Shown here one piece after another: positions 12,463 through 41,414 of a stretch of DNA of 64,000 nt (within the stretch, counting starts at the first letter, position 1; every line of letters begins with the position of its first letter). Source of the DNA: an uncultured Lachnospiraceae bacterium (GTDB taxonomy: Bacteria > Bacillota > Clostridia > Lachnospirales > Lachnospiraceae); assembly GCA_947628955.1 (NCBI GenBank), contig CANRBX010000005.1, positions 1 to 64,000 on the forward strand, written 5' to 3'. The notes under the pieces are model-generated. The model saw nothing but the letters and a program-made list of their open reading frames with translations. It was not told the DNA's origin and searched no databases. The position numbers and the translations under genes were made by a program.

Positions 12463-12580
12463 AATAAACCTATTTTACTAGATAACGTCTTTTTTGTAAA
12501 GAAGAAAATATTGAATTACAAGTATAATTTAAACTGACCTGTTTTTCTTTACATCCGGCTTTTTTCCTGATAATATGTAA

Positions 12581-12643
12581 ATGATGACAGGGTCAAAAGT
12601 CATAAACCACAATCCGTATGGCATCATTTGCCCCTAACATCAT
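12581..12643 (-). repeat. Dispersed intergenic TIR element, copy 1 (compact form, 63 bp)
   Basis: ATGATGACAGGGTCAAAAGTCATAAACCACAATCCGTATGGCATCATTTGCCCCTAACATCAT; its RC matches the two ends of the 27975 copy. Confidence 0.8.
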
Positions 12644-12801
12644 GTAAATACATTCATGGAATGTGCGGCCGGACGCATTCACATTCATCTGTGTTCTGTC
12701 ATACAAAAGAGAAGATCAAAACTGCCGGAGCGGTTTCCGTGCAGTATTTTACCGGCATTTTACCCGCTGATTCAGCAAAATAATCTCAGGAGGAAGGAAG
12801 T

Positions 12802-13334: not shown

Positions 13335-13614
13335 AGCGAAATGCGATGACGGAGAATAGTATGCTGATTTTCTTTTTTCAGAGAGACGCCGGGCGGTGCG
13401 AGGCGTCAGAAGAGATGAGCAGAACTCGCTCCCGAGCGGCTGCCCCAAATTCCTTATGGAAGAGTAGACGCAGACGGCTCCCGGCCGTTACCCCGGGAAG
13501 GATATATGACAGGCGTCTGTATCCGTTGAGTGCGTGAACATCACGAATGAGAGTGGTACCGCGAAAGAATATACTATCTTCCGCCTCTCGGCAGCAGCCG
13601 GGAGGCGTTTTTTT
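13335..13614 (+). promoter_or_regulatory. T-box leader (predicted leucine-responsive) upstream of leuA
   Basis: AGAGAG...GGTGcGA distal stem I, specifier region GAACTCGCTCCCGAGC (CTC = Leu at 13425-13427), T-box AATGAGAGTGGTACCGCG (13546-13563), terminator at 13582-13614. Left boundary approximate. Confidence 0.92.
13582..13614 (+). terminator. T-box terminator hairpin
   Basis: CGCCTCTCGGC-AGCA-GCCGGGAGGCG-TTTTTTT. Confidence 0.92.
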
Positions 13615-13924: not shown

Positions 13925-13967
13925 TAAATTAGTTTAATATGAAAACAAAAAAAGGAGAATGATAATT

Positions 13968-15650
13968 ATGATGAATTACAGGAAGTACACCCGTCAGTAT
14001 TTTATGCCGCCGGTGCGCAGCATGAAGTGGACCGAGAAGGAGTATGTGGATCACGCGCCTGTGTGGTGCAGCGTGGATCTGCGCGACGGCAATCAGGCCC
14101 TTGTCGTGCCGATGTCCCTGGAGCAGAAGATCAAGTTCTTTAAGCTTCTGGTCGAGGTCGGCTTTAAGGAGATCGAGGTCGGCTTCCCGGCAGCCTCCGA
14201 CACGGAGTACCAGTTCCTGCGCAGGCTGATCGAGGATGATCTGATCCCGGACGACGTGACGGTGCAGGTGCTGACGCAGGCGAGGGAGCATATCATCCGC
14301 AAGACGTTTGAGGCGCTTAAGGGGGCAAAGAATGCGATCGTCCATGTCTACAATTCCACGTCCCTGGCACAGCGCGAGCAGGTGTTCGCCAAGTCGAAGG
14401 AAGAGATCCTGCAGATCGCGGTGGACGGAGCAAAGCTTCTGAAGGAGCTGGCCGATCAGGAGGGGGCAAATTACCGCTTCGAGTACAGCCCGGAGAGCTT
14501 CACCGGGACAGAGGTGGACTACGCAGTGGAAGTCTGCAACGCGGTCCTGGACGTCTGGCAGCCGACGGCTGACCGGAAAGCGATCATCAACCTCCCGAGC
14601 ACGGTGCAGATGTCCATGGCACATGTGTACGCGAGCCAGATCGAATACGTCAACGACCACCTGAAATACCGGGAAAACGTGGTTCTCTCGCTCCACCCGC
14701 ACAATGACCGCGGCTCGGGCATCTCGGATGCGGAGATGGGCATGCTTGCGGGCGCAGAGCGCATCGAAGGCACCCTGTTCGGAAACGGTGAGCGCACCGG
14801 AAACGTGGACGTTGTGACGCTGGCGCTCAATATGTATGCGCAGGGCGTGGATCCGGAGCTCGATTTCACGAATATGACCGATATCACGGACAAATATGAG
14901 GAGTACACCGGGATGAAGGTGGACGAGCGGAGGCCGTACGGCGGCGCGCTTGTATTTGCCGCTTTCTCAGGCTCCCATCAGGACGCGATCGCGAAGGGCA
15001 TGAAATACCGAGAGGCGAATCACTGTGATACATGGACGGTTCCGTATCTGCCGATCGACCCGACGGATATCGGGCGCTCGTACGACGCGGATGTGATCCG
15101 CATCAACAGCCAGTCCGGCAAGGGCGGCGTCGGCTACATCCTTGAGCAGCACTTCGGCCTGAAGCTTCCGAAGAAGATGCGCGAGGCCATGGGCTACATT
15201 GCGAAAGGCGTTTCCGACAGCCTGCACAAGGAGCTGCAGCCGGAGGAGATTTTCGAGCTCTACAAGGAGAAATTTGAAAATATCACGGTTCCGTACAATA
15301 TTGAAGAGGTGCACTTCAAACAGCACAACGGCATTATCGCCGAGGTAACGGCAACCTACGAAGGAAAGAGAAGCGTGATCGTCGCCTCCGGAAACGGCCG
15401 TCTCAATGCGGTCAGCAACGCGATGAAGAAGCACTTCCGCCTGGAGTATGATCTGGTGACCTACGAAGAGCATGCGCTGGAGAAGAGTTCGAGCTCGCGC
15501 GCGATCGCGTACGTCGGGATCCGCGACAAAAACGGAAAGATCCATTTCGGATCCGGCGTGGACGTGGACATCATCAAGGCGTCGATCGCCGCGCTCCTGA
15601 CATGCATCAACCACATGGCGACGGCCCATTCAGATCAGGAGAACGCTTAA
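13968..15650 (+). CDS. leuA: 2-isopropylmalate synthase
   Basis: WCSVDLRDGNQALVVPMSLEQKIKFFKLLVEVGFKEIEVGFPAASDTEY, HPHNDRGSGISDAEMGMLAGAERIEGTLFGNGERTGNVD; RBS aaaggaga. Confidence 0.96.
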   Translation: MMNYRKYTRQYFMPPVRSMKWTEKEYVDHAPVWCSVDLRDGNQALVVPMSLEQKIKFFKLLVEVGFKEIEVGFPAASDTEYQFLRRLIEDDLIPDDVTVQVLTQAREHIIRKTFEALKGAKNAIVHVYNSTSLAQREQVFAKSKEEILQIAVDGAKLLKELADQEGANYRFEYSPESFTGTEVDYAVEVCNAVLDVWQPTADRKAIINLPSTVQMSMAHVYASQIEYVNDHLKYRENVVLSLHPHNDRGSGISDAEMGMLAGAERIEGTLFGNGERTGNVDVVTLALNMYAQGVDPELDFTNMTDITDKYEEYTGMKVDERRPYGGALVFAAFSGSHQDAIAKGMKYREANHCDTWTVPYLPIDPTDIGRSYDADVIRINSQSGKGGVGYILEQHFGLKLPKKMREAMGYIAKGVSDSLHKELQPEEIFELYKEKFENITVPYNIEEVHFKQHNGIIAEVTATYEGKRSVIVASGNGRLNAVSNAMKKHFRLEYDLVTYEEHALEKSSSSRAIAYVGIRDKNGKIHFGSGVDVDIIKASIAALLTCINHMATAHSDQENA

Positions 15651-27966: not shown

Positions 27967-27974
27967 TGAATAGA

Positions 27975-28160
27975 ATGATGTTAGGGTCAAATGATGCCAT
28001 ACGGATTGTTCCGTGCTCCGCACTCCCACAATCCTGCCCAACATTCGGAATTCATGGGGCCCCTTCCCCACTTCTTCCTCATGTTTGGGCGGGTCATTAA
28101 GTCATAAAACCACTTTTGCGCAAGCGCATCGTGGTTTATGACTTTTGACCCCGGCATCAT
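27975..28160 (+). repeat. Dispersed intergenic TIR element, copy 2 (long form, 186 bp)
   Basis: ATGATGTTAGGGTCAAATGATGCCATACGGATTGT ... GTGGTTTATGACTTTTGACCCCGGCATCAT; two internal hairpins. Confidence 0.85.
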
Positions 28161-28173
28161 AGAATATTTTTGG

Positions 28174-41255: not shown

Positions 41256-41272
41256 CCAGGACAGAACATAAA

Positions 41273-41392
41273 ATGATGTTGAGGACAAATGATGCCATAC
41301 GGATTGTTTCGTGTTGCGCTGTCTGCGCTCCGCTTCGGCCGGTGCCGGACGAGCGCCACTGGCGCTCAGCACCCCACAATCCCTGGCATCAT
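41273..41392 (+). repeat. Dispersed intergenic TIR element, copy 3 (120 bp)
   Basis: ATGATGTTGAGGACAAATGATGCCATACGGATTGT ... ACAATCCCTGGCATCAT. Confidence 0.8.
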
Positions 41393-41414
41393 AAAATCAG
41401 ACAGGAGAGAAAAG

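Follow-up and report, generated by a model that had tools for sequence, protein, structure and literature searches.

A 59-bp sequence in a Lachnospiraceae genome is an internally shortened copy of a small, widespread and very probably mobile element

The 59-bp sequence at 12583–12641 (plus strand) of the window, by which we mean the whole 64,000-nt stretch of DNA analysed (contig CANRBX010000005.1 of assembly GCA_947628955.1, from an uncultured Lachnospiraceae bacterium), is a shrunken, internally deleted form of a widespread small mobile element and one of many such derivatives. It is highly probable that this copy belongs to a non-autonomous, MITE-like element whose full form carries the RF01699 fold and which is mobilised by a transposase acting in trans. 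Such a transposase would recognise the inverted ends GATGNNNGGGTCAAAAG and would insert the element at short A/T-rich targets of the form ATNNN(N)AT, with duplication of 7 bp or, less often, 8 bp, while forms shortened by internal deletion would retain the two ends and still be able to move.

The 63-bp sequence first described at 12581–12643 was present exactly as stated. Alignment of its reverse complement with a 186-bp copy elsewhere in the window (27975–28160) revealed 60 of 63 identical positions and a single internal gap of 123 bp, bearing out the preliminary description, which had regarded the compact copy as the joined ends of the longer one. At the deletion junction (12609–12610, plus strand) the halves share a 2-bp microhomology, AC on the plus strand and GT on the minus strand, over which the left and the right part of the full copy can each be aligned. 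Alignment to the full copy and analysis of the ends place the element proper, GATG...CATC, on the same strand as RF01699, with the outer AT belonging to the target. Pattern searching located the terminal inverted repeats GATGACAGGGTCAAA (12583–12597, plus) and GATGTTAGGGGCAAA (12627–12641, minus). An exact 8-bp direct repeat, ATGTAAAT, lies on both sides, abutting GATG on the left (12575–12582) and following CATC on the right (12642–12649); this repeat replaces the GTAA that had been proposed as the target duplication. The sequence at 12581–12643 gave no Rfam match, remaining below the RF01699 gathering score, and its core is deleted. Further downstream, a T-box leader (RF00230, 111 bits) occupies 13337–13591 (plus), upstream of a 563-aa ORF (13959–15650) that by eye looks like 2-isopropylmalate synthase.

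Two further copies are present in the window. The 186-bp copy matched the Clostridiales-1 RNA of Rfam (RF01699) over model positions 1–166, with 133.3 bits against a gathering score of 48 and an E-value of 2.4e-30. Its element proper spans 182 bp (27977–28158, minus; Rfam match 27992–28159, minus), has a fold z-score of –7.6 and shows covariation, and is flanked by the exact 7-bp repeat ATAGAAT (27970–27976 and 28159–28165). The third copy (116 bp, 41275–41390, minus) is internally rearranged, lies between ligA and metA, and is flanked by exact 7-bp copies of ATAAAAT (41268–41274 and 41391–41397). Its 5′ end is cut to GATGCCAGG and it holds a GC-rich hairpin module. The inverted repeat at the 5′ end can be as short as about GATGCCAGG, so that recognition there may be short or structural. 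Palindromic GC-rich modules of 50–60 bp (GGTGCTNNACGAGCGCCACTGGCGCTCAGCACC type) were observed at varying positions within elements at nine loci as well as in this window copy, as if another family of small repeats were nested in the elements.

The end motif ATGATGNNNGGGNCAAA matched eight times in the window with at most two mismatches (2.2 expected), and the four perfect matches are the ends of the compact and 186-bp copies. Genome-wide, 33 + 28 matches with at most one mismatch were found versus 2 + 1 for the reversed control, so that the inverted-repeat ends claimed earlier, GATGNNNGGGTCAAA at both ends, rest on 61 matches against 3. Copies aligned together with their flanks share GATG...CATC as their true ends, with the adjoining AT being target. 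Exact direct repeats of 7 or 8 bp flanked 19 of 45 copies in a first set (0.76 in shuffles) and 44 of the 100 non-redundant copies in the final set, which was drawn from several Lachnospiraceae-type genomes (38 repeats of 7 bp and 6 of 8 bp; 5000 shuffles gave a mean of 1.18 and never more than 6). Roughly half of the copies have no exact duplication, which speaks against the MITE-like reading. Repeats of 5, 6 or 9–11 bp occurred at none of these 100 copies, and 60 carried exact or one-mismatch repeats (7.1 in shuffles). The direct repeats occur at the expected anchor only, follow the consensus ATNNN(N)AT, and are A/T-rich (88% A+T in the duplicated bases versus 58% in the flanks). In 18 of the 44 exact-repeat copies, AT does not stand as the outer bases of both sides and the repeat is nevertheless exact; the boundary is therefore fixed at GATG/CATC, and duplications of GTAA or of 3–4 bp with ATGATG ends are ruled out. 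An apparent preference for sigma-70 –10 boxes disappeared against flank-swapped controls. At three loci, in G000 (the genome of the window), G002 and G019, elements were joined end to end in tandem or nested fashion with no recognisable duplication between them.

These duplications bear directly on the REP-like nature that had also been suggested for the element. A palindromic element of the REP/RAYT kind, mobilised in single-stranded form by a transposase of the Y1 (HUH) type, would match the strong hairpin structure and the intergenic dispersal. However, Y1 chemistry is not expected to create a target duplication, and the clear 7- or 8-bp duplications contradict it. Moreover, Y1_Tnp (PF01797, RAYT-type) was not found in G000, G002, G005 and G012, all of which hold the element. 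This is the least probable of the explanations considered.

Full-length copies measure about 182–194 bp, and 17 of them support a predicted structure in which a P1 stem closes three arms, with 98.5% of the pair cells being standard. Compensatory changes were found in 18 of the 56 pairs of this predicted fold, and its covariation score of 0.223 exceeded those of shuffles (0.108) and of slid controls (0.062 or less); the slid controls lean in its favour, since the structure was predicted on the same alignment. The covariation of the core shows selection on structure, present or past. In the predicted fold, the 5′ end has its partners inside the element: GGCATC forms P1 with it, and TGACCC pairs with the 5′ GGGTCA. 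Once folded, the 5′ end is therefore not base-paired to the 3′ inverted repeat. The RF01699 model stops about 17 nt before one end, so that the outer inverted repeat on the 3′ side lies, in this subfamily, beyond the P1-closed model. A 192–193-bp subfamily (in G005, G006 and G045) has a 3′ hairpin, GGGGTCAAAAGGTATTTTGCCCC, outside P1 and clear 7-bp duplications. A second RF01699 class with a similar core has the ends TTTACTATAAAAG... and ...GTGGTGCCYGCGAAGCRGGCATGAAAGTTTA (13 loci in five genomes), with no target duplication evident by eye. The RF01699 fold seems to move in company with two different sets of ends.

This genome contains 32 RF01699 matches, and matches were found in 24 of 25 genomes of the genus; for the order's other families the figure was 1 of 16 genomes. 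Pattern searching of named genomes located the 3′ end of the element in Eubacterium ramulus ATCC 29099, Hominisplanchenecus faecis, a Coprococcus MAG and many Lachnospiraceae MAGs. This distribution points to a gut bacterium of Lachnospiraceae type as the most likely host. The genome of H. faecis CLA-AA-H246 gave 166 end-motif matches with at most two mismatches against 21 for the control, and many contigs of this assembly break inside the element; both observations suggest a recent burst of near-identical copies. An insertion sequence was rejected as the source of these breaks, which fall in the roughly 194-bp element itself.

Compact forms of 54–68 bp, some with their own exact duplications, were found in several species, including H. 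faecis; pattern searching gave 18 copies below 70 bp, one or two of which may be chance matches. The junctions of these forms differ, being GT in the 12581 copy and CAGG in a 65-bp form, and the 65-bp derivative occurs in three genomes (G000, G002 and another MAG), each time with a separate exact duplication. Because of these differing junctions and separate duplications, deletion derivatives are seen to arise repeatedly and to stay mobile. Since compact forms have duplications of their own, the ends suffice for movement and the covarying core is dispensable for it.

The same observations weigh on two other explanations. If RF01699 were a family of functional small-RNA genes, its copies would be duplicated RNA genes and the 59-bp copy an immobile, decayed remnant. 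The covarying fold of an Rfam family and its rating as a probable RNA by the original authors (PMC2864571) are in line with this, as is decay in place, which seems to happen at one site (see below). The compact copy, however, has its own exact 8-bp duplication, core-less forms carry separate duplications at different sites, and copies lie in both orientations among genes (as judged by a crude ORF caller that serves as a rough guide), so that we regard small-RNA genes as an unlikely explanation. Even less likely is a SINE-like element copied by way of RNA with a reverse transcriptase supplied in trans: the RNA-like structured body and the short duplications (7 or 8 bp, at A/T-rich positions) speak for it, but the inverted ends are kept on both sides with loss being internal only, and a tail at one end was absent in the copies inspected.

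Empty sites provide further support for insertion of the MITE-like element, and this evidence concerns relatives of the 12581 copy and the third window copy rather than the 12581 copy itself. From G012 and G013, eight insertion sites with the element excised served as queries against nine genomes, these two among them. A 198-bp insertion of G012 was cleanly missing from the matching place at five loci in four other genomes, although two of these loci belong to a single genome and are possibly paralogous. The gap coincides with the ends of the element. That the duplication there is not exact counts against the MITE-like reading; a 193-bp element with a 7-bp duplication, of which 2 bp were lost later, would fit the length. 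At a G013 site, shortened remnants are apparently all that G012 and G014 keep, suggesting internal deletion in place. The order ligA–metA is kept at 29 loci of other species, and the element was found in none of the 23 gaps of 15–207 bp, the remainder being five gaps of zero length and one uninspected gap of 646 bp. Taken with the many copies, inverted ends, 7- or 8-bp duplications and deletion derivatives, these empty sites of relatives uphold the earlier view of a non-autonomous MITE-like element.

Fixed-length duplications and inverted ends suggest that the putative mobiliser is probably a DDE-type transposase acting in trans. A full-length copy with a transposase bearing the same inverted repeats, as envisaged in the preliminary description, was looked for and not found in the draft genomes and for the transposase families searched, where multicopy insertion sequences may be missed. 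PF00872 (IS256-type) had no match in G000, and the sole PF01609 transposase of G000 was without the ends, with a weak partial match in one of 11 relatives. No convergent end pairs 0.6–4 kb apart and enclosing a transposase were seen in G000 and its relatives, and no wide end pairs with duplications were found; a 3.7-kb end pair in G005 encloses ordinary genes, one ORF being GMP-synthase-like by eye. Transposase-like ORFs on small H. faecis contigs (one IS256-like and one IS21-like, by eye) had other ends. Plasmids gave no match to the element, phage records matched only as short unannotated faecal contigs, and viral contigs held a single chance motif only.

These results raise the question of why a covarying fold is kept across species when the core is not needed for movement. 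Tentatively, selection may keep the core for a role in tuning transposition or host expression, exerted either as an RNA transcribed from promoters nearby or as single-stranded DNA in folded form; the core-less derivatives would then be parasites of the same transposase. RF01699 is used to mark small-RNA genes when gut genomes are annotated. Should its members be transposable elements, such annotations and searches for function among conserved neighbours would need rereading, and the element would provide a marker of insertion history in Lachnospiraceae.

Small structured repeats that are mobile, such as Correia/NEMIS, RUP and ERIC (PMC2229807), are in general terms like this element in being non-autonomous, dispersed, mostly intergenic and foldable. 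Their hosts, ends and targets differ from those of the element. The 186-bp copy is a full member of Clostridiales-1 (RF01699), which Weinberg et al. (2010; PMC2864571) presented as a probable RNA of Clostridiales and the human gut and not as a cis-regulator; the description consulted includes neither mobility nor duplications nor compact core-less copies. The family had gone unrecognised in the preliminary description: its long form is in fact already catalogued, so that a match to a known family, named there as grounds for refutation, holds in part. The entry, however, describes an RNA, and mobility of RF01699 was not described in the literature searched, as judged mostly on titles and abstracts. 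What is apparently unrecorded is thus that the Clostridiales-1 'RNA' makes up the body of an element that transposes. With bacterial MITEs such as QMITE1/2 and Chunjie (PMC10969869), the element shares a length of 50–500 bp, inverted ends, target duplications, a size gradient generated by internal deletion, a high copy number and a non-coding nature. It differs from them in having other ends and another target, in having no known autonomous relative, and in keeping a strongly covarying multi-arm fold across species.
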